A stretch of 47,577 nucleotides of DNA, from IMG/VR virus record IMGVR_UViG_3300046811_000336, positions 1 to 47,577 of that record. One strand, given 5' to 3'. The position numbers were made by a program, and so were the translations under genes. The first letter of the stretch is position 1. Each line of letters starts with the position of its first letter. Of the stretch, positions 2,223-40,136 are shown in pieces. This DNA is from a virus. The notes under the pieces are model-generated. The model was not told where the DNA came from, did no database searches, and saw only the letters and a list, made by a program, of their open reading frames with translations.

Positions 2223-3114
2223 GACCATCACTCATGTGCTCGCGCATCACGCGGACCCACTCGGCCGCGACTTGCGGGACGATGGCATTTCCGAAGGCGC
2301 GCAGCTTAGATGCTCGGCGCTGTACCCCATGAGCCAGCGGGTGAAGTCCGGGTTGAGTTGGCCGGGCTTTGCCGTCTGTGCAAGAGAGCCATTCGAGGTT
2401 GGACCACGGTGAACTACATGGTCGTTCAGTCGCATGCCACTTGTTGCAGGACGATTCTTTTTCCAGTTGCTTTCCAAAGACCCAGCCATTTTGTCGTCCG
2501 ATGCAGCCGGCGTTGGCCATGAGGCCAGCGTCACGTAGTCGTCCAGGTTCCGGCGCTGGCCGCCAGTCCGTTCTGGTTGGCCGTTCCGGCTGTACATCCC
2601 GTCCCGCGACTGTGGAGTGGGCCACGAACCACACTCGTTGCCTGATGTGCGGCGCGCCGACGCTGCAAGCTGGAAGTACGGCCGCCCCCGTGGCGTAACC
2701 CTCCGCCTCCAAGTCATGGCAAACAGCGTCGAGCCAGCCCCATCCAATCGCTTGTTCAACATTTTCGCCAAAGACGACGCGAGGGCGGCACTCGCGGATG
2801 AGACGGAACCAATGCGGCCATAGGTGACGTTCGTCGGCTGCACCTGTTCTTTTGCCCGCGGCGCTGAAGGGCTGGCATGGGCAGGAGCCTGTCCAAACAG
2901 GTCGGTCATCGCCCCATCCGGCGAGACGCAGGGCGACGCTCCATCCTCCGATGCCGGCGAAGAAGTGGCATTGTGTGTATCCTCGGAGGTCATCTGCCTT
3001 CACATCCTCGATGCTGCGCTCGTCGATGTCACCTGCCGCGATCTGCCCGGCCGCAATGAGATTGCGAAGCCACTGCGCGGCGTAAGGGTCGATCTCGTTA
3101 TAGTACGCGGCCAA
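2200..3114 (-). CDS. DNA cytosine-5 methyltransferase (Dcm type)
   Basis: 304 aa, expected to transfer a methyl group from S-adenosylmethionine to C5 of cytosine in a short recognition site. Motif I FFAGIGG lies at 51-57, motif IV with catalytic Cys80 in SCPCQPFS, motif VI ENV at 117-119, motif VIII QRVWF at 159-163, and motif X GNAIVPQVA near the C-terminus. The target-recognition region between motifs VIII and X is short. No restriction enzyme gene is adjacent, so it looks like an orphan, protective phage enzyme. A second long frame (2247-2993, same strand) is nested entirely inside it. The first ~45 residues precede motif I and could partly be upstream of the true start. Confidence 0.92.
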   Translation of the reverse strand: MAAYYNEIDPYAAQWLRNLIAAGQIAAGDIDERSIEDVKADDLRGYTQCHFFAGIGGWSVALRLAGWGDDRPVWTGSCPCQPFSAAGKRTGAADERHLWPHWFRLIRECRPRVVFGENVEQAIGWGWLDAVCHDLEAEGYATGAAVLPACSVGAPHIRQRVWFVAHSTVAGRDVQPERPTRTDWRPAPEPGRLRDAGLMANAGCIGRQNGWVFGKQLEKESSCNKWHATERPCSSPWSNLEWLSCTDGKARPTQPGLHPLAHGVQRRASKLRAFGNAIVPQVAAEWVRVMREHMSDGHENPGRT

Positions 3115-3117
3115 TCT

Positions 3118-3306
3118 TCACCACGACTTGCTGACCTTCTCGATAGCTGCCCGTGCGATCTCGCGGGCTTCGTATTTGGTCATTGTCGTCAGCGTTTTTC
3201 CGGGTGCTGGGTTGGCACCGCGAAAGCCCTCTACAATGGCCTCCAAAGCTTCGAGCAGATCAGGTCCGGCCTGCTTGATGCGCTCAAGCTCCTCCAGGGT
3301 TTTCAT
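3118..3306 (-). CDS. 62-aa hypothetical protein, copy A of a duplicated gene
   Basis: Product MKTLEELERIKQAGPDLL..ARAAIEKVSKSW, nearly identical to the copy at 2034-2222. The DNA is about 90 percent alike by eye over ~185 bp. The gene ends 3 bp before the methyltransferase start. Function unknown. Confidence 0.65.
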   Translation of the reverse strand: MKTLEELERIKQAGPDLLEALEAIVEGFRGANPAPGKTLTTMTKYEAREIARAAIEKVSKSW

Positions 3307-4274: not shown

Positions 4275-5437
4275 CGGCGCGCCTCCGCTACCGCGGCGTT
4301 GATTTCTGCCGCCATCTCGTTGGTGTCGTCTGAGGTCATTTGTGCGCCGTTTCGCATCGCGCGCGCGTTCGGCCCGGCCCACCAGTTTGCGAGCGCGGTA
4401 ATCTCGCCGGCATGCTTCGCCGCTTCGATGATCTGCCGGGTGAGTAACTTGAAGGTCTCGGCATCCTTCGGCGGCCTTTTCTGCGCCATGCCGATCAGCT
4501 CGCCCATGGTCATTTCGGGCGCGTCCTGCGACGCCTCGCCGGTGTCGTCGGCGTGCTCGATCACGGTGTCGTCGCCGGGCCGTGGGTCGCCGGGATCATC
4601 CGCGGTGCCGCCTTCCGGCTCGCCGCCGCTGCCCCCGGCCCACTTCTCAAGCGCCGCCATGGCACTTACGGGCTGGCGCTTGGTGACCTCCTTGCCGCGC
4701 TCCGCCGCGCCCTTCATGTCGTAAAGTTCTTCGTCGCGTCTAATCACGTCATCAAGGTCCGTGCTCGTCGGCAACGACTTGCAATGCAGCCGTACTACGG
4801 TTTTCCTGCACATTTCCGGGTAGGCGATCGGATCGTTCCACGGTCCCTTTTTCGACTTCGAATAGCGTTTGCGGATGTCCTCAATTTCCTCGATCGACAT
4901 AATCTCGTAAGCCTTGGTGCCGTCCTTGAAGATGGCGATCGAATAGGCCGCGATTATCTTGCGCCCGCGCCCACCACGCAGCGACGGCCGGTGATGGATG
5001 TGCGGATCGTCGCCCAACTGATATTCGAAGGCGTCGCCCTCGTGCACGACGTGCGCATACAGATCGATTAGTTCGCCGCTGTTGCGCGCCTTCTTTCGAA
5101 TGCCTGCCACCATCGGCATCCACGCTGCTTGATCGCTGGCCTTGCGGCCGTCTTCGTTTTCGCCAAATGGAACGATCGCGCCTTCCCGCCCATCCGGAAG
5201 TAATCCATCAGCCGCAGCCTTCATGCATGCATTGAATATGGACGTTCGCGTGCACTTGAGCAGTGCCGGCGAATTTTGCAAAGCCGTCATCACCACACGA
5301 TTGAAACGCTCCAACGGGATGTGCGCCGGCAGCGCATATTGGAACTGCGGCCCCATCTTTTCCAGGTCGCGCCGGAATTGCTCGATGACAGCCTTCGGAC
5401 CTTGCGGAGCGGTGGTGACTTGATGCTGTTGATTCAT
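4271..5437 (-). CDS. recT: RecT family single-strand annealing protein
   Basis: 388 aa. RecT proteins bind ssDNA and anneal complementary strands, working with a 5'-3' exonuclease, here the YqaJ-type protein at 7653-8609. Characteristic stretches are SIFNACMKAAADGLLPDGREG, a region around WMPMVAGIRKKARNSGELI, AYEIMSIEEIEDIRKRYSKS and MCRKTVVRLHCKSLP. The C-terminal ~110 residues are an acidic, low-complexity extension ending in a helical segment. The start at 5437 (MNQQHQ) is preferred over 5464 because it overlaps the upstream stop as ATGA and has AGAGAAAG upstream. Confidence 0.93.
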   Translation of the reverse strand: MNQQHQVTTAPQGPKAVIEQFRRDLEKMGPQFQYALPAHIPLERFNRVVMTALQNSPALLKCTRTSIFNACMKAAADGLLPDGREGAIVPFGENEDGRKASDQAAWMPMVAGIRKKARNSGELIDLYAHVVHEGDAFEYQLGDDPHIHHRPSLRGGRGRKIIAAYSIAIFKDGTKAYEIMSIEEIEDIRKRYSKSKKGPWNDPIAYPEMCRKTVVRLHCKSLPTSTDLDDVIRRDEELYDMKGAAERGKEVTKRQPVSAMAALEKWAGGSGGEPEGGTADDPGDPRPGDDTVIEHADDTGEASQDAPEMTMGELIGMAQKRPPKDAETFKLLTRQIIEAAKHAGEITALANWWAGPNARAMRNGAQMTSDDTNEMAAEINAAVAEARR

Positions 5438-17902: not shown

Positions 17903-18440
17903 GCTAGGGGGGTGGCGGACAAGGCGGAAAACGCACCCACGGACTGACGGTAGCGGTTTTCCAGCGGCGGTGCACAAATACCAATTTGGTTTCCAGCCAA
18001 CCAATATTTCAGGGACACGTATTAAGAGCGCGGATGGGGGTGGCCTGTCCAGGGTAGGGGGGGGGAGGACCTGGGGGGGCCTAGGGGGCGGTCTCATTAC
18101 GTTCCCGCTGCCCCCGGAAAGCGCTAAAGCCCTGGTAGGGAAAACGCCTCATTGAAATCATTGGGTTATCGGCAACAATGTCCCGTCAGTGTCCCAAACG
18201 GATGGGAGCTGAAGGCGGCGAAGTGTGACGCGCAAGGCAGACGGGTCACACACAGTACGAAAGCGGAACATAGGGCAGCCTTACTGACCCTTTCGGGGCG
18301 GAAACAGACATAATCAGATATTCCCTATCTCAAACCATTTATGGCCATCCGCCCGTATTGTTTTCCTACATTTTCCCCATTTAAGACCGCGGCCTTTTAA
18401 CGATTGGCGGCGGCACCATTAACAAAACTATTAATGGCTG
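17903..18440. other. Non-coding region with a G-rich tract
   Basis: No convincing gene. It contains G runs of 3, 9, 7 and 5 within 18052-18088, able to form a G-quadruplex on the plus strand. The GC content then falls toward a T-rich/AT-rich stretch at ~18340-18440 that leads into the module promoter. An inverted repeat CCATTAA..TTAATGG occupies 18416-18437. Confidence 0.5.
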
Positions 18441-18478: not shown

Positions 18479-18521
18479 CCGGATGCAGCAATATTCGGCG
18501 AGCAAACCATAACTAAGGACA
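18479..18521 (+). promoter_or_regulatory. CAGCAA-loop leader element 0 (AAA+ gene)
   Basis: Stem CCGGATG/TATTCGG (with two G-U pairs) closes the loop CAGCAA at 18486-18491. AAGGACA follows at 18515-18521, 7 nt before the ATG. Same layout as the four leaders at 20859-22396. Confidence 0.55.
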
Positions 18522-18528
18522 ACCCCAC

Positions 18529-19830
18529 ATGAGAACGCCGACCTTATCGCCCCAAGAGGCGGAAACCTTGCTTGGCCCGCGTGGTCTTTTGAAGGTATCG
18601 CGCGACAATCGGAACGACGTAAAGAAATGGTTAGTAGCGAACGGCTTTCCCGCGCTTTTCTGTGGAGGCCTTTCGTATATTGAGATGCAGCAGGCTTATA
18701 ACCAGACGGACGGGCGCGGCTTGACGCAGCTGCGAGCGAAGCTTGCGCGTTGCGAGGATGATAGTGGCGATGAACCTGGTCTTGATACTAATGATACGAT
18801 TGAGACCTCGGCGGCAAGCAATGGCAACGGCTATACTAACGGCAACGGCCATGCGACTAACGGCAACGGCCATGCCAGTGACGATGCTTCCGAGCTGCTG
18901 AATATTGTTAGCCGCATTGCCGGCAAGTCGCTATCGATTGAGCAAGTATCGGCGATTATCGATAGCAAGCTTGCGGCGGCCTTAAAAGACCACAAGACCG
19001 ATGCGGCGCCGCGGTTGGATATTGCGACTAACAATATCGTGACGGCGACGATCGAAGGGTACGTACACCAGAGCCTTCCGGAATTGATTGCGGCGTGCTC
19101 GGTTGGTTTGCCGGTCTTTTTAGCCGGTGGCGCGGGTGGCGGCAAAACGACTGCGATGGAGCAAGTAGCGACGGCGCTAGGCCTTCCGTTCTACATTCAG
19201 GGTGCGGTATCGGGTACGCATGAACTCTTGGGTTATAAGGACGCGGCTGGCGCGTATCACACGACGCCGTTCCGGCAAGCTTATGAGCACGGCGGGGTTA
19301 TGGGGTTGGATGAATTAGACGCGGGGGATGCTGGCGCATTATTGGTCTTGAATGCAGCGCTGGCCAACGGGCACATGGCTTTCCCTGACAATCCGTTGCC
19401 GGTCAAGCGTCACCCTGATTTTCGTTGCATCGCGGCTGGCAACACGTACGGGCAGGGAGCCGACCGGCAATATGTAGGTCGGAACCAGATGGATGCGGCG
19501 TTGCTTGACCGCTTCTATTTCATGGGCTGGGATTATGATCATGCGCTTGAGTTGGCGTTGTGTGGTGAGACCGGTCCTTATAATGACCGCCACGTCATTA
19601 AACCCGTGCCGCGCGCGATAACCGCGGCAATGTCGTCCGATTGGTGCAATCGGGTGCAGCGATTGCGAGGTGCGATACAGCCAGGCGACCGATTGATCAT
19701 ATCGCCGCGCGCGAGTCTTATGGGGATTAAGGCATTGTCTGCCGGTCTTAATAACCAACAGGTCGAGAACGCGTTGGTTTGGAAAGGCTGCAAGGCCGAT
19801 GTACGTCGGCGGATTGAGATAAGCATTTAA
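18529..19830 (+). CDS. MoxR/CobS-type AAA+ ATPase
   Basis: 433 aa. The ATPase core shows Walker A at 200-207 (GGAGGGKT), Walker B at 257-262 (VMGLDE), sensor 1 Asn305 in AAGNTYG, and LLDRF with a candidate arginine finger Arg328. This matches CobS/MoxR-type AAA+ proteins that remodel targets together with a VWA-domain partner. The N-terminal ~95 residues are a separate domain, joined by an Asn/Gly linker with repeats (YTNGNGHATNGNGHA, ~102-116). The next gene is a candidate partner. Many A/T-ending codons suggest a different origin from the flanking phage genes. Confidence 0.82.
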   Translation: MRTPTLSPQEAETLLGPRGLLKVSRDNRNDVKKWLVANGFPALFCGGLSYIEMQQAYNQTDGRGLTQLRAKLARCEDDSGDEPGLDTNDTIETSAASNGNGYTNGNGHATNGNGHASDDASELLNIVSRIAGKSLSIEQVSAIIDSKLAAALKDHKTDAAPRLDIATNNIVTATIEGYVHQSLPELIAACSVGLPVFLAGGAGGGKTTAMEQVATALGLPFYIQGAVSGTHELLGYKDAAGAYHTTPFRQAYEHGGVMGLDELDAGDAGALLVLNAALANGHMAFPDNPLPVKRHPDFRCIAAGNTYGQGADRQYVGRNQMDAALLDRFYFMGWDYDHALELALCGETGPYNDRHVIKPVPRAITAAMSSDWCNRVQRLRGAIQPGDRLIISPRASLMGIKALSAGLNNQQVENALVWKGCKADVRRRIEISI

Positions 19831-19865
19831 TATTAATATATTAACATGCTGGATTTTACAAACCG

Positions 19866-19888
19866 GCGAGTATGGACTATATACTCGC
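19866..19888 (+). promoter_or_regulatory. Stem-loop before the CobT/VWA-like gene
   Basis: A perfect 8-bp inverted repeat GCGAGTAT/ATACTCGC with loop GGACTAT lies in the 85-bp, AT-rich gap between the ATPase gene and its neighbour. The loop differs from the CAGCAA class. Confidence 0.45.
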
Positions 19889-19915
19889 TGGACAACGCGA
19901 ACGGAAAACGAGACA

Positions 19916-20842
19916 ATGACAACGGCAAAACACATATACCTGAACAGCGAGCGCGGGTTGGCGGATCATCTCCCGGCCATTACCGCCCAGAGCACGGTAT
20001 CGCATGCGCACTTTGCCAGCGTTGGGGATTGCGTGCGGTACGTGCAATCCATTCCGGCGGCCGATTGCTGGAACGATTTCTTTTTCGACAATTCAGACTC
20101 GGCGCGCGACCTTGTATCGGTAACCGGCCCTGAGGCTTGCGGGCTTGCGCTCAATGGATGGCATGACGGCGCCGCGCGGGTAGCGCGCCTACGCGATACG
20201 ATTGCGGCGACGCAGCCCGTAGCCGCCAAGATCGCGCGTTGGGACGTTGCGGGCGCAGTCCCGTCCGTCCCGCGCTACCTTGCCGGCAATCCGCTCGCCA
20301 TGCGGCGCCTCGCGAGCGCAGAGACGCGCAAGCGGCCGATACTGACGCTAGTCAACCATATGGGCGGGACACATAATGTCCCGGAGCAATGCTTTATCAA
20401 CCGGGCGGCGGTAGTGGCAGCAATCGCCGACGTGATAGAGGCTTCCGGTTACAGCCTCCACATTATCGGGACCAGTTATTGCGCCAAGGAAACATTCGCG
20501 CATGAAACCGCGGTAACGCTGAAGGATCCGGGCGCGCCGGTTGATATCGCGACGCTGGCGTTTGCGTTGGGCCATGCCGGTTTCTTTCGCCGCATTGTGT
20601 TAGGTGTGCGTTGTGCGACCGACGTCAACAAGCCGTTGGGCGGCGGCTTGGGATCGACGCAGGATTACAGCGGCGCATTGCCGCCCGACACTTACTTGCT
20701 GCCGTCGATGAACACCACCTCCGACTATTTCCTGTCTGAAAAGACCGCGGCGACGGCCGGGCTTGCGGCGATGATAGCGACGCTGGCGCGGCAGGGTTGC
20801 CCGGCTTTCCGGGATCATGAGAACTATGCGGAGGCTGCGTGA
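19916..20842 (+). CDS. Putative CobT/VWA-like partner of the AAA+ ATPase
   Basis: 308 aa. No strong motif, but RPILTLVNHMGG followed by AAVVAAIADVIEASGYSLHIIGTSYC and later GHAGFFRRIVLGVRC has the strand-helix pattern of a von Willebrand A fold. In canonical domains a D-x-S-x-S metal site ends strand 1; here it is degenerate (NHMGGTHN). The first ~120 residues include WNDFFFDNSDSARDL. Phage AAA+ genes of this class are often followed by a protein of this size. Assignment as a VWA-like adaptor rests mostly on context. Confidence 0.45.
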   Translation: MTTAKHIYLNSERGLADHLPAITAQSTVSHAHFASVGDCVRYVQSIPAADCWNDFFFDNSDSARDLVSVTGPEACGLALNGWHDGAARVARLRDTIAATQPVAAKIARWDVAGAVPSVPRYLAGNPLAMRRLASAETRKRPILTLVNHMGGTHNVPEQCFINRAAVVAAIADVIEASGYSLHIIGTSYCAKETFAHETAVTLKDPGAPVDIATLAFALGHAGFFRRIVLGVRCATDVNKPLGGGLGSTQDYSGALPPDTYLLPSMNTTSDYFLSEKTAATAGLAAMIATLARQGCPAFRDHENYAEAA

Positions 20843-20858
20843 CGGCTGACGCGCGACG

Positions 20859-20939
20859 GGCGCCGCTGCAATGCGGCGCCTATCGGGCGGCACGCCCAGA
20901 GGGAACGACAGCAATCGTTCTCGATAACTCGAAAGGACA
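20859..20939 (+). promoter_or_regulatory. CAGCAA-loop leader element 1
   Basis: Three hairpins in series: GGCGCCGC-TGCAAT-GCGGCGCC (20859-20880), GGGCG-GCA-CGCCC (20885-20897), and GGGAACGA-CAGCAA-TCGTTCTC (20901-20922). AAAGGACA follows at 20932-20939, 7 nt before the ATG at 20947. Confidence 0.7.
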
Positions 20940-20946
20940 AAAGACC

Positions 20947-21165
20947 ATGTTGTTAAGTTTCCGGACGCGCACCGACGCGGACTATGCGCAAGGCTACAGC
21001 GAAGGCCTTGCCGATTTCGACGCGCACCGTCTCAGCGGCTTTTGCTCGCAATCCTATCGTGAGGGATGGGAGCGCGGCCATTGCGATCGCGTCCTTGTTT
21101 TCAACAAGGTGGCCGAGCGCCTTGGCTATGCCGACTATGCGGACCTGAAGCAAAAGCACTGTTAG
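20947..21165 (+). CDS. 72-aa hypothetical protein
   Basis: Starts MLLSFRTRTDADYAQGYSEG. The start is fixed by the leader with AAAGGACA; the longer frame would read through the leader hairpins. YAQGYSEGLADFD and YREGWERGHCDRV suggest two similar helix-turn units. Function unknown. Second of the genes carrying the CAGCAA leader. Confidence 0.65.
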   Translation: MLLSFRTRTDADYAQGYSEGLADFDAHRLSGFCSQSYREGWERGHCDRVLVFNKVAERLGYADYADLKQKHC

Positions 21166-21175
21166 GACCGCATCA

Positions 21176-21213
21176 AGGCTTGCCAGCAAGCAAGCCTCCA
21201 CACTGAAAGGACA
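21176..21213 (+). promoter_or_regulatory. CAGCAA-loop leader element 2
   Basis: A perfect 8-bp stem AGGCTTGC/GCAAGCCT closes CAGCAA at 21184-21189. AAAGGACA follows at 21206-21213, 8 nt before the ATG at 21222. Confidence 0.7.
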
Positions 21214-21221
21214 AACGGAAA

Positions 21222-21623
21222 ATGAGAGTTCAACTATTCACCAAGGCGGACCTCACCAAGCTGGTCTCGAATGGCGACGTCAGCCGCGCCGCAATCGAGA
21301 AGGACGGCAACACGCCCGACCATGTTCCGGTGACCAAGCTGTTCACGCCGGCCGGCGGCTGCACGTGGTTGCTCACCGAATACGACGCGGAGAGTGGCCG
21401 GTTTTTTGGTCTCTGCGATCTCGGCCTGGGCTTTCCCGAATTGGGCTACGTCAGCCGCGAGGAGATCGAGGAGGTGGCGTTTTCGCGCAATCCGCAAGTG
21501 ATCGAGCGCGACCGCTATTTCAAGGGGATGCATCCGCTCAGTGTGTACGCGCAAGCTGCGCGTGAGCACGGCCACATCGTTGAAAGCACAAGCGCGCTTG
21601 TGTCGGCGGCGGTGCAATCATGA
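21222..21623 (+). CDS. DUF2958 family protein
   Basis: 133 aa. VTKLFTPAGGCTWLLTEYDA, then FGLCDLGLGFPELGYVSREEIEE, matches the DUF2958 pattern known from plasmids and phages. Biochemical role unknown. Translation is preceded by the CAGCAA leader, and its stop overlaps the next gene as ATGA. Confidence 0.8.
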   Translation: MRVQLFTKADLTKLVSNGDVSRAAIEKDGNTPDHVPVTKLFTPAGGCTWLLTEYDAESGRFFGLCDLGLGFPELGYVSREEIEEVAFSRNPQVIERDRYFKGMHPLSVYAQAAREHGHIVESTSALVSAAVQS

Positions 21624-21862
21624 CGATCACCGCAAAGAAGTCCCTACGCTCCACGCTGGCGCGCGCCGATGCCTTCCTGATGGAAACCAAGGGCGAGGGC
21701 TATTCGACGCACGACGGGGAGCCGGTATCCCGCAAGCTGGCCACTGCGGCGACGCAAGGCGAGCTGTTCGGCGACGTGCCGACGGCGCATGACCTGATCT
21801 TGGTCTCGAATGACGACGGTCTGTTCCCCGGCATGGGGCAGACCTGGAGGCTGGGGGAATGA
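21620..21862 (+). CDS. 80-aa hypothetical protein
   Basis: Starts MTITAKKSLRSTLARADAF in ATGA overlap with the DUF2958 gene and lacks its own leader. The middle SRKLATAATQGELFGDVPTA and the end NDDGLFPGMGQTWRLGE are unlike any family I recognise. Confidence 0.6.
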   Translation: MTITAKKSLRSTLARADAFLMETKGEGYSTHDGEPVSRKLATAATQGELFGDVPTAHDLILVSNDDGLFPGMGQTWRLGE

Positions 21863-21933
21863 GGCCTGATCGCGCAACACTTTGGCGCCTTCTGACAAGA
21901 CAAACACCGCCAAAGCGCTGAAAGATCGCAGCC

Positions 21934-22012
21934 CAAGTGCCGCGCCGTTTGCGGCACTTGACCGGCGATCCCGCCGAACCGGGCCAGCAAGCCCGGACAC
22001 CCGAAAAGGACA
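21934..22012 (+). promoter_or_regulatory. CAGCAA-loop leader element 3
   Basis: Hairpins in series: CAAGTGCCGC-GCCGTTT-GCGGCACTTG (21934-21960), CGGC-GATCCC-GCCG, and CCGGGC-CAGCAA-GCCCGG (21979-21996). AAAGGACA is at 22005-22012, 4 nt before the ATG at 22017. Confidence 0.7.
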
Positions 22013-22016
22013 ACAC

Positions 22017-22310
22017 ATGAACCGATACGCGCTGATCGACGATGCCAGCGGCTTTGTTTGGGGCGTCTGCTTTGCCGATGATCCGGTTACAGCATGTCGC
22101 CTTGTTGACGAAGGAATCGGCGAGCACGACCGCGACTATGAAGACATCGGCAATGCGCGCCTTGACGGCCGCAGCGGCTATCACGTCCACATTGTCCCGG
22201 CCGATATGATCATCGACGACGGGCAGGACGCGGACCAGATCGAAGCGGTGAGCCAATCGCCTTTTGCATGTCGCGTCGTCATTCACTGGACCGACCCGAC
22301 GGAGAAATGA
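22017..22310 (+). CDS. 97-aa hypothetical protein
   Basis: Starts MNRYALIDDASGFVWGVCFA. The start is set by the AAAGGACA leader. An alpha/beta small protein, acidic, with no family I recognise. Next-to-last gene of the AAA+ module. Confidence 0.65.
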   Translation: MNRYALIDDASGFVWGVCFADDPVTACRLVDEGIGEHDRDYEDIGNARLDGRSGYHVHIVPADMIIDDGQDADQIEAVSQSPFACRVVIHWTDPTEK

Positions 22311-22318
22311 TCGCAGCC

Positions 22319-22396
22319 CATGGCGCCCCCCGCGAGGAGCGCCATGACCGGCGATCATGCCGACCCGGGCCAGCAAAAGCCCGAATTGAAAGGACA
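22319..22396 (+). promoter_or_regulatory. CAGCAA-loop leader element 4
   Basis: Hairpins in series: CATGGCGC..GCGCCATG (22319-22346), CGGC-GATCAT-GCCG, and CGGGC-CAGCAAAA-GCCCG (22366-22383). AAAGGACA is at 22389-22396, 4 nt before the ATG at 22401. The middle hairpin and ACCGGCGATC are shared with element 3. Confidence 0.65.
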
Positions 22397-22400
22397 CTAA

Positions 22401-22523
22401 ATGAAAAAGATTATTGTCGCGCTAACGCTAGTGGCCGGTGTTGCCGTATGGACGGCGGTTCCGGCCAAGGCTGACTGTCCGTGGCGATGGAACGGCAATG
22501 GCTGGCAGCAGATTTGTCGGTAA
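22401..22523 (+). CDS. 40-aa secreted two-cysteine peptide
   Basis: A signal peptide (MKKIIVALTLVAGVAVW then TAVPAKA) leads to a predicted 16-residue mature peptide DCPWRWNGNGWQQICR. The two Cys at mature positions 2 and 15 could close a disulfide ring holding three Trp. It has its own CAGCAA leader and AAAGGACA, and is followed by a strong terminator hairpin. Secreted to the periplasm or outside. Possible roles are signal, antimicrobial, or superinfection/lysis factor; none is shown by the sequence. It was too short for standard gene callers. Confidence 0.7.
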   Translation: MKKIIVALTLVAGVAVWTAVPAKADCPWRWNGNGWQQICR

Positions 22524-22560: not shown

Positions 22561-22623
22561 CTGAACGCCGACCGATGTGATAAGCATCCCGCGTACGATG
22601 GCGGTTGTTTCCGAGGGGCCGTT

Positions 22624-22700
22624 TGTCCTTCGGTCCCTCCTCGCGAAGGCGGGGAACGACTGTTCATCCAGGCTCTCCGGGATTGCTGTCCCGGGGAGCC
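22624..22700 (-). promoter_or_regulatory. Inverted copy of the CAGCAA leader element
   Basis: On the minus strand a 12-bp stem GGCTCCCCGGGA/TCCCGGAGAGCC (one G-U pair) closes CAGCAA (22683-22688). About 40 nt downstream on that strand is AAGGACAAACGG (AAGGACA at 22624-22630), the same string as in element 2. No good minus-strand gene follows, so this may be a relic or an element with another role. Confidence 0.45.
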
Positions 22701-22729
22701 GCCCCCCCGCTCCCCGCAAAGGCGCGCTG

Positions 22730-23215
22730 ATGACCGATGCTTTCGAGATCGCGATCCGGCTGGCCGATGAGGGTGTTCCGCTCGGGGCCATTGCGCGCTC
22801 GGTGCAACTGCCCTCTGAAGAGCTGCGCCGACATCTGTGTCTGGTGCGCGACGCTGGCCGCCTGATTTCGCTTCCGCGTGCTGATTGGCCGCCCGGCTTT
22901 CCGCGCGAGGAACGTGCGGTTGAGCTGTCGCGGCAGATCGTGAGCGACCGCGAGGCCTTGGCGATGGCGGCGAAGCAGATGTTTGATTTGACCCCTATTG
23001 AGGCCGATTTGTTCCTGCTGCTGCTGCAGCCCGGAACGATCCGGCATGATGTCGCGACGTCGATCCGCACTACGTATGTGCACATTCACAATCTGCGCCG
23101 CCGCCTCACCGCGTTCGGCCTCACGATCGCAAACATTTGGGGCTACGGCTATAAGCTGTCCGATCCAGACCGCCGCCGCGCAATGGATTTAATAATGGGG
23201 CGGGAGGCGGCCTGA
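22730..23215 (+). CDS. CtrA/OmpR-type winged-helix regulator
   Basis: 161 aa starting MTDAFEIAIRLADEGVPLG. The C-terminal half is a transcriptional-regulator winged helix of the OmpR/PhoB/CtrA type: LTPIEADLFLLLLQPGTI, then TYVHIHNLRRRL and IANIWGYGYKLS. The receiver domain is absent; instead the N-terminus holds a small HTH-like helix pair (PLGAIARSVQLPSEELRRHL). Because the phage has two CtrA-type boxes before late genes, it is a candidate late regulator or CtrA mimic. The longer frame to 22577 crosses an inverted leader hairpin and was not used. Confidence 0.65.
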   Translation: MTDAFEIAIRLADEGVPLGAIARSVQLPSEELRRHLCLVRDAGRLISLPRADWPPGFPREERAVELSRQIVSDREALAMAAKQMFDLTPIEADLFLLLLQPGTIRHDVATSIRTTYVHIHNLRRRLTAFGLTIANIWGYGYKLSDPDRRRAMDLIMGREAA

Positions 23216-38161: not shown

Positions 38162-40136
38162 ATGGCTATCCCCACTGCGGGCTTTGGCGTCGCAACATCA
38201 GGCACGACGCCTCCCCTAACCCCCGTCGGCTCTACCGCCAACACGCTGCAATCGACCGGGTTCATCCCTAGCCGTTACTAATTTTGGGGATGTTAAACCC
38301 TCTCTGATTCCGGGAACGCGTCATTGACGTCACCCGAGGGAACCACTATCCAGCATGGGTTTATTCCATAGGAGCAGACAGTGACTCCGGAATACCTGGC
38401 TGGGCTCTTCGACGGTGAAGGGTGTATCGACGTGCAGCGGATGTATCCGAAGACGGGCAGAAACAGACTGTATGTGCGACCTCGCGTTCGCATGTGCATG
38501 GCTGATAGCGCTCGTTCGATGATGGAGCTGCTGCGTGCCAGGTTTGGAGGCCACCTTGTCGGCCGTAAGGCCGGGAAGGCGAACCAGCAAAACAGCTGGT
38601 CGCTTGAGTGGCTGAATGGCGACGATATGCGTCGCATTCTGAACTTGATCCTTCCCCACCTGATCCTGAAAGCGGAGCAGGCCAAACTTGTTCTCTGGTG
38701 GCTGGATAATGCGTCTGGCCGGCAAACCAAAGACACTCGTTTTGGTCAGAATGCTTGCTTCGCGGGGATGGAACAGGCGCGCGCGGCTTTTGTTGAAGAG
38801 TTGCGCGCTATGAAGGTGGACCCGCAGAGACTGAGCGAGAGGGCGGCGGAGCGCATTGCTTCGTTGATGCGACAGTCCGACCCCCATGGCGACATGGGGA
38901 GGATGGGAGAAATGGCCATCCCGCTTGCGGTCTAGGGCGGCTGTAAGTTAAACGCGATTGACCGTCGCGTAGTAACAGAACGGAAATCTGGTCGGCAAAG
39001 TTGGTCGAAAAATTTTATGCGAGTACCTGCTTGTCCGCGATATCGAATACCGATTACGAGGGCGAGATACAGAATATGGGCGACCGGGTGAAAATCCGGA
39101 CAAAACCCACGATCACGATTCGACCCTACCTTGCCGACGGTTTGCTTGGGCTTGATCGCCCGTCCGGCGGCTCGGTCGAACTGTATATCGGAAACGGCTA
39201 CTACTTCAGCCTGATCCTCGACGACGTGATGGAGATCCAGTCGGATCTCAATCTGCTGAGCATTTGGTCGGATTAATTATAGTCCCCTTGCAGAGCAATC
39301 TGCATTGAACAAATCCGGGTGAATTCAGGGGAACGCCAGAACGGCCAATCCTGAGCCAAGCCGCGAAAGCGGAAGGTGCAACGACTAGAGCGAAAGCTCG
39401 TAGGGCCAAGCGGCCCGAAGCGCCCGGCCCCCGAAAGGGGTGATGATATAGTCTCCTCTGCATAGGAATATGCAGCAGCCAAAACGGCGGTGACGAGAGT
39501 TGCGTCTCGTTACGAAGATCAAGGGATGCAGCCCAGCAGTTAAAGATCACGGTCGACAAAGACGTGCTCGGCGGGATTGTTGCCAAGGCCAACGCGCTCA
39601 ACATGGGCGCGACGGCGGGCAACGTTTCCGGGAACCTGAACCTCGGCATCAAGGGCACGCCGCTCACCCTGGTGGGGGCGACGCCTACGACCGGGCAGAT
39701 AACGATCCTGGATTGTCTGCTGCGGATGGGGCAGTGCCTCGACGAGTTCAACATCCCGGAGATCGGCCGGTGGGTGGTGATGCCGTCCTGGGCCGGGCGG
39801 CAGATCAAGCAGAGCGAGCTCCGGCAAGCCTATCTGTCGGGCGATCCGGTGTCGATGCTGCGCAACGGCCGGCTCGGAATGGTTGATAGGTTCACAATAT
39901 ACATCTCTAACTTGTTGCCGACGTCGGTTCAGGACGCGACGCATTTTGCGGCTGGCGAATACCCGATCTTCGCAGGGCATGCCCATGCCCTGACGTTCGC
40001 GTCGCAGGTGAGTAAAATCGAAACGTTGAGGAGTGAGCTGACCTTCGGGCAAATTTTGAGAGGCCTACAGGTGTACGGCTACCAAGTCCTTGATAACACT
40101 GCGATTTGCCAAGCCCAGGTCATCTCAGGCGGGTAA
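38162..40136 (+). CDS. Major capsid protein, gene split by two insertions
   Basis: Three coding segments: 38162-38278, 38992-39273 and 39525-40136. Joined they read 336 aa with intact frame (IPSRY/SAKLVEKFY and LLSIWSD/DAAQQLKITVDKD). SNTDYEGEI, RTKPTITIRPY and the ITVDKDVLGGIVAKAN region match P22/N4-like coat proteins. The start MAIPTAGFG at 38162 has AGGGA upstream; 38150 is an alternative. The second gap is a clear group I intron, so its boundary is well supported. The first gap holds a LAGLIDADG gene and its exact splice points are inferred from protein continuity. Without removal of both insertions no functional coat protein can be made. Confidence 0.82.
38279..38991 (+). other. Intron-like insertion 1 with homing endonuclease gene
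   Basis: 713 nt separate ..IPSRY from SAKLVEKFY, with an immediate stop (TAA) after Tyr. A LAGLIDADG gene occupies 38381-38935. I do not find the group I core strings (P, Q, R, S) or a group II 5' GUGYG start, so the splicing class is unassigned. GTTAC at the left junction can pair with GTAAC at ~38972, near the right end. The boundaries may shift by a few bases. Confidence 0.6.
38381..38935 (+). CDS. LAGLIDADG homing endonuclease
   Basis: 184 aa from a GTG with AGGAG upstream. LAGLFDGEGCIDV near residue 6 is the LAGLIDADG motif, followed by LRARFGGHLVGRK, WSLEWLNGDDMRRILNLILP and LKAEQAKLVLWWLD, typical of intron-encoded members. One motif is evident, so it would act as a homodimer cutting intronless coat genes. 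It is nested in insertion 1 of the coat gene. Confidence 0.85.
   Translation: MTPEYLAGLFDGEGCIDVQRMYPKTGRNRLYVRPRVRMCMADSARSMMELLRARFGGHLVGRKAGKANQQNSWSLEWLNGDDMRRILNLILPHLILKAEQAKLVLWWLDNASGRQTKDTRFGQNACFAGMEQARAAFVEELRAMKVDPQRLSERAAERIASLMRQSDPHGDMGRMGEMAIPLAV
39274..39524 (+). ncRNA. Group I self-splicing intron in the capsid gene
   Basis: 251 nt, no ORF. Core elements are visible: P GAATTCAGGGGAA (39321-39333), Q AATCCTGAGCCAA (39347-39359), R GTGCAACGACTAGA (39376-39389) and S GATGATATAGTC (39442-39453). TTCAGG/CCTGA forms P4 and GACTA/TAGTC forms P7. Hairpins with GAAA loops are at 39361-39372, 39388-39399 and 39429-39440. The 5' splice follows U39273 of GAT, which pairs as U-G in P1 (GGAU/GUCC); the intron ends in G39524. 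It is an unusually small, ORF-less intron. Confidence 0.9.

Follow-up and report, generated by a model that had tools for sequence, protein, structure and literature searches.

A recurrent leader hairpin before accessory genes of a temperate soil phage, and a candidate antisense RNA matching it in three phage lineages

The window analysed here is the whole 47,577-nucleotide (nt) stretch of IMG/VR virus record IMGVR_UViG_3300046811_000336, a contig of a temperate soil phage that encodes an integrase (80-1264), a terminase and a portal protein. Five genes of this phage, unrelated to each other, are each preceded by a leader of a single layout: a hairpin of 5-8 pairs with the loop CAGCAA, a spacer of 6-16 nt, the Shine-Dalgarno (SD) heptamer AAGGACA and, 4-8 nt further on, the ATG. 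A preliminary description of the sequence had proposed these five leaders, and all of them were located at the start codons that it named (Table 1). Its account of a fixed loop on changing stems with preserved pairing holds with two corrections: CAGCAA is present in all five loops, the loop of leader 5 being 8 nt long (CAGCAAAA), and the stems remain paired, with G-U pairs in stems 1 and 2. An intergenic element at 22593-22701 carries the complements of both leader constants in two hairpin loops, and it is probably the RNA partner of the leaders.

By itself CAGCAA is not enriched in the window (30 observed versus 24.5 expected). AAGGACA is enriched (12 versus 3.4), and CAGCAA hairpins number six against a mean of 0.59 in dinucleotide shuffles of the window. 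Complete leaders, of which there are five, did not occur once in 300 dinucleotide-shuffled genomes. When the hexaloops preceding an SD sequence and an ATG were ranked over about 130 loci, TTGGCG came first with 12 different stems and CAGCAA second with nine, the next having four. The preliminary description had made its proposal depend on CAGCAA hairpins not being equally frequent elsewhere, and none of the 33 distinct CAGCAA hairpins in other loci precedes AAGGACA and an ATG. The covariation-type evidence that it saw for an RNA element is formally strong: over the eight distinct stems of lineage A, to which the window belongs, 97.9% of pair cells hold standard pairs versus 51.6% in shuffles, six of six pairs change on both sides, and shifting the partner abolishes the signal. 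For lineage C, described below, 100% of pair cells are paired versus 66.8% in shuffles. Leaders were scanned directly by loop and SD sequence; because the stem sequences are unconstrained, a covariance model would have little else to carry and would add little beyond these two constants.

The window has a sixth CAGCAA hairpin, at 22671-22700 on the minus strand, hence the plus strand presents the loop TTGCTG. We considered this hairpin as a sixth, minus-strand leader and rejected it: the AAGGACA stands 47 nt past its loop and is itself part of a hairpin loop, and no ATG is suitably spaced. On the plus strand, another hairpin (I, loop TTTGTCCTT) is found some 50 nt upstream of the loop of this one (II). 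Written as RNA, the two loops are UUUGUCCUU, the exact complement of AAGGACAAA, and UUGCUG, the exact complement of CAGCAA, and their order fits antiparallel pairing with a leader in which the loop comes before the SD sequence. The predicted fold of 22593-22701 has an outer stem enclosing hairpin I (9 pairs), then hairpin II (12 pairs), with an energy of -81.2 kcal/mol versus -69.1 for shuffles (z -2.75). Each of the two stems contains one plus-strand G-U pair whose minus-strand counterpart would be an A-C mismatch, and in a direct comparison the plus (antisense) strand reached -68.3 kcal/mol versus -49.3 for the minus strand. Among 100 shuffled genomes the two-hairpin arrangement turns up 0-1 times, and with stricter stems demanded it is absent from 300. 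In the full contigs of the three lineages (the lineage B contig and two lineage C contigs were checked) the complementary element is found once, the other flagged sites being leaders read backwards.

Table 1. Leaders, candidate antisense RNA element and adjacent regulator gene in the window (hairpin loops in square brackets)
Feature	Position	Strand	Remarks
Leader hairpin 1, CCGGATG[CAGCAA]TATTCGG	18479-18498	+	motif scan
AAGGACA (SD), leader 1	18515-18521	+	before ATG 18529, AAA ATPase of phrog_249 type
Leader hairpin 2, GGGAACGA[CAGCAA]TCGTTCTC	20901-20922	+	motif scan
AAGGACA, leader 2	20933-20939	+	before ATG 20947, 72-amino-acid protein without family match
Leader hairpin 3, AGGCTTGC[CAGCAA]GCAAGCCT	21176-21197	+	motif scan
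AAGGACA, leader 3	21207-21213	+	before ATG 21222, DUF2958 protein
Leader hairpin 4, CCGGGC[CAGCAA]GCCCGG	21979-21996	+	motif scan
AAGGACA, leader 4	22006-22012	+	before ATG 22017, 97-amino-acid protein
Leader hairpin 5, CGGGC[CAGCAAAA]GCCCG	22366-22383	+	motif scan
AAGGACA, leader 5	22390-22396	+	before ATG 22401, 40-amino-acid peptide, signal-like N-terminus
Candidate antisense RNA element	22593-22701	+	intergenic; 109 nt identical in L126, unlike its flanks
Element hairpin I, GAGGGGCCG[TTTGTCCTT]CGGTCCCTC	22613-22639	+	loop 22622-22630 complements AAGGACAAA
Element hairpin II, GGCTCTCCGGGA[TTGCTG]TCCCGGGGAGCC	22671-22700	+	loop 22683-22688 complements CAGCAA
Winged-helix regulator gene	22730-23215	+	downstream of lineage A element; homologue also after lineage B element

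Related phages were gathered by a portal-protein scan, which gave 80 related contigs, and by a direct search for CCGTTTGTCCTTCGG, which gave one close relative, contig L126. Leaders were found in three lineages, as defined by one de novo scan from which longer spacers or weaker stems could escape. L126 belongs to lineage A: its five leaders have CAGCAA and GAAAGGACA and stand before five genes not homologous to the five of the window, their stems are mostly new (one, GCTTGC, is also in the window), its element matches that of the window at every position, and the neighbouring regulator is 84% identical in protein. In lineage B, represented by L084, the architecture is the same with different stems, the loop CGACAA and the SD region CGAAAGGTAA; the SD constant of this lineage, given as CGAAAGGUAA and also as AAAGGUAA, contains no GGA, and an element at 5091-5181 holds both lineage B constants in hairpin loops. 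Lineage C (L021, L022, L024, L027, L029, L037, L041, L083 and others) has about 36 distinct leaders with the loop (T/A)TGGC(G), or (U/A)UGGCG in RNA, and the constant GCGAGGAC; its element was present in at least nine distinct contigs and is conserved inside otherwise divergent intergenic DNA. Each lineage has one element with both of its own constants in two hairpin loops, the complementary segments being exposed in the loops of a structured RNA in the predicted folds from A, B and C alike, and in all lineages the element locus differs from the leader loci.

The matching between leaders and elements is block-diagonal by lineage. Contiguous complementarity at the SD constant is 8.1, 9.5 and 7.6 nt within the lineages versus 3.4-5.9 nt across them, and that at the loop 6.0, 6.0 and 5.4 nt within versus 2.0-3.0 nt across. 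The SD match extends to several target mRNAs, with 7-10 contiguous nt in all lineage A and B leaders and 6-10 in those of C. Homologous genes bear the leader of their own lineage in four families, of which the 40-amino-acid peptide and two more are shared by A and C and an ArdC-like protein by B and C, therefore the leader follows the element and not the gene. Three lineage C homologues of one gene have the unrelated stems TGGGCGCT, CGGGCACT and GGACATC. The polarity of the loop pair also differs between lineages: in A and B it is the antisense strand that has the UUG-type loop, in C the leader strand. Such a swap is expected if the pair itself is selected and is hard to square with a protein that reads the loop; the data favour recognition of RNA by RNA.

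One general alternative is that the hairpins are mRNA stabilisers or translation enhancers spread by cassette shuffling, and that the element is a decayed leader. Stem-loops ahead of ribosome-binding sites commonly stabilise mRNA, and the leaders clearly move between genes. A stabiliser has no need of a fixed loop, however, and a decayed leader would not stay identical over 109 nt between phages with differing genes, nor would it be rebuilt with matching letters in three lineages, which makes this explanation highly improbable.

Our preferred reading, which we hold with fair confidence, is that one phage-encoded antisense RNA from approximately 22593-22701 on the plus strand docks on the five leaders and blocks ribosome binding. 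The loop of hairpin II (UUGCUG) would kiss the CAGCAA loop of each leader, and the loop of hairpin I (UUUGUCCUU) would pair with AAGGACAA(A) and so cover the SD sequence and block the ribosome, the outcome being repression of an accessory-gene regulon. The leader stem would serve only to present the loop, and stems would be free to vary because only the loop is read. Any gene that acquires a leader would join the regulon, and one phage RNA would probably switch the whole set of accessory genes. Since the three lineages use different codes, each antisense RNA should act on its own lineage only. The preliminary description had suggested co-regulation of translation through a protein or a small RNA recognising the hairpin; this is supported by a candidate RNA partner that complements both constants exactly in its loops, and by matching pairs with other letters in the related phages. 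From these patterns we infer that the element is transcribed, that it kisses the leaders and represses their genes, and which strand serves in lineages B and C.

Several observations weigh against this antisense reading. Any transcript of the element is so far putative, and scans of the flanks of the A and C elements recognised neither a sigma-70 promoter nor a U-run terminator, the promoter scans being uninformative. Some lineage C leaders have AUGGC loops, which would pair over only 4-5 nt. The effect could also be activation, repression being the natural expectation. Finally, the genes of lineages B and C lie on the other strand from the antisense sequence, and fold energies favour neither strand in lineage C (in lineage B the antisense strand has -61.0 versus -55.0 for the other). 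These last two points would suit an alternative with a protein, of phage or host, that binds both the leader hairpin and the SD sequence. The element, transcribed from the strand with the leader-like letters, would then be a decoy RNA that titrates this protein by resembling the leaders, in the manner of CsrB and CsrA. Those letters share the strand of the genes in B and C, where read-through would yield the mimic, and the C element folds equally well on either strand. In the window, however, the mimic strand is 19 kcal/mol worse and loses the SD hairpin; the SD letters sit in a hairpin loop in the element but are not enclosed by any stem in the leaders; the loop has the opposite polarity in lineage C; and the lineage B constant (AAAGGUAA) lacks the GGA needed by CsrA. 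We therefore regard a decoy as unlikely. In lineage C a conserved AT-rich block (GATTAAACATTAACAG) is present on the side where the antisense strand would start, and conservation ends within a few bases of the other end; this placement suggests, short of proof, the direction of the antisense strand.

The position of the element in lineage A raises another alternative, that the antisense sequence acts as a part of the regulator mRNA, in the 5' untranslated region ahead of the winged-helix coding sequence; leaders and regulator mRNA would then control or titrate each other with no free small RNA. Both the window and L126 have the element directly upstream of the regulator gene and on the same strand, and no intervening terminator was found. 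This cannot be general, given that the antisense strand is opposite to the downstream genes in B and C, and we consider it quite unlikely.

Among known systems, the plasmid copy-control antisense RNAs resemble the antisense reading in their loop-loop recognition, with a U-turn loop on either partner, and UUGGCG is the loop of the IncI and IncFII plasmid copy-control system. They are transcribed opposite to a single target to which they are fully complementary, whereas the phage element is a separate locus that would pair through its loops only and with many targets. Loop-loop antisense systems generally have a YUNR U-turn in one partner (PMC4485353); here YUNR is contained in the lineage C leader loop UUGGCG and not in the hexaloops UUGCUG (A) and UUGUCG (B). 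Staphylococcus aureus RNAIII masks the SD sequence with a hairpin loop, makes a second loop-loop contact in the same mRNA and has several targets, the SD duplex plus loop-loop contact being established for RNAIII-coa (PMC2837412). Unlike the phage element, it is a long chromosomal quorum-sensing RNA, its targets have no standard leader cassette, and the second coa contact is in the coding region. For OxyS-fhlA, two contacts between small RNA and mRNA have been proposed, one of them over the ribosome-binding site (PMC2946933). This double kissing complex is similar in both respects, but it concerns a single host mRNA and no leader family of variable stem and fixed loop. CsrA/RsmA with CsrB-type decoys is comparable in that GGA is near the SD sequence in many leaders and one RNA carries the same letters in its loops; it differs in that a constant apical loop is not a CsrA feature, lineage B has no GGA, and the phage element is on the favoured strand complementary to the leaders and not identical.

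The class of mechanism is thus already known from RNAIII-coa and OxyS-fhlA. Neither Rfam nor the literature searched yielded a description of a plug-in leader that combines a fixed loop with variable stems, of both partners being rewritten lineage by lineage, or of the use of such a system for a set of phage accessory genes. At gathering score, Rfam 15 gave no family at the leaders or the element (window, leader region and element searched), and the literature search returned no standardised, re-coded leader regulon of such form, in agreement with the preliminary description, which knew of none. The elements were not found among the INPHARED annotated phage genomes. Wider searches with the winged-helix protein (43 loci) and the 40-amino-acid peptide (11 loci) gave no fourth lineage by de novo scan, viral-contig searches with the DUF2958 and 72-amino-acid proteins gave nothing useful, and the motif was not present in relatives of the leader-1 ATPase. 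The region from Rhizobium phage RHph_TM27A (56% portal identity) showed no recurrent leader, and the portal had a single match among genome contigs, a distant Thiotrichales fragment.

A broader scheme, which we regard as an even bet, is that these temperate phages place an exchangeable leader cassette on their accessory genes, in some lineages behind a type-II hammerhead-like ribozyme, and that each phage has one antisense RNA that reads the loop and SD letters as a code specific to its lineage. On at least two occasions both partners would have been recoded together, and the code could also confer an immunity, particular to each lineage, against the accessory genes that incoming phages bring. 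If this holds, control of a variable accessory gene set rests with a single small phage RNA acting through a plug-in leader, and insertion behind the cassette is enough to bring a newly acquired gene into the regulon. The three natural leader-RNA pairs, orthogonal to one another, would allow a test of the division between loop-loop and SD pairing and of joint code change, and they could serve as a parts set for synthetic regulation. Through shared control with ArdC-like anti-restriction genes, the scheme would also give a way into genes whose function is unknown, DUF2958 and the 40-amino-acid secreted peptide among them.

Other elements lie close to the leaders. By structural pattern search, the related contigs contain 25 distinct type-II hammerhead-like ribozymes, the majority immediately preceding leader hairpins of lineages B and C (L084:1848-1912; L022:1841, 2459 and 4157; L029:2064, 4213 and 5084; L037:161, 2298 and 3047, and others). 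Rfam Hammerhead_II scored 29.7 bits on the L084 copy (E 1.8e-4), under the gathering score, and the L022 copy had no Rfam match. Cleavage by these ribozymes could divide a long transcript and leave each leader at a 5' end. In a published A. tumefaciens prophage, hammerheads are found beside ardA (PMC3088659). All three lineages also have a second recurrent element, GAUNGCAGCCC - variable hairpin - GAUCGGCGAUCNNGCCG, immediately ahead of leaders, at the site that hammerheads take elsewhere (window 21929-21975 and 22311-22358; L126 at about 1693, L084 at about 3281, L029 at about 2350 and L037 at about 500). Its flanks are constant, its stem varies and it has no Rfam match; it may be a further ribozyme or processing element. 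Lineage A alone has, before leaders, a related repeated unit, GA(C/T)GCGCGACGG - variable hairpin - CUAUCGGGC (window approximately 20848-20893; L126 approximately 735-790 and 1050-1098).

A palindrome of the repetitive extragenic palindrome (REP)-like type (CCCCCGCCTGCGCGGGGGCAAGCT) is inserted near the L126 leaders and element, at approximately 1746-1770, 3087-3107 and 3224-3250, and is absent at those places in the window. Just ahead of the leader-gene region, long G-rich runs with a shared GGCCTGTCCAG are found in two lineages (window 18030-18092; L084 70-205), and these are perhaps an origin or packaging signal. The structural-gene region contains group I introns, in the window at 39265-39475 (its sole Rfam 15 match), in L022 at 20956-21170 and 22011-22231, and in L084 at 20400-20629 and 21354-21679.

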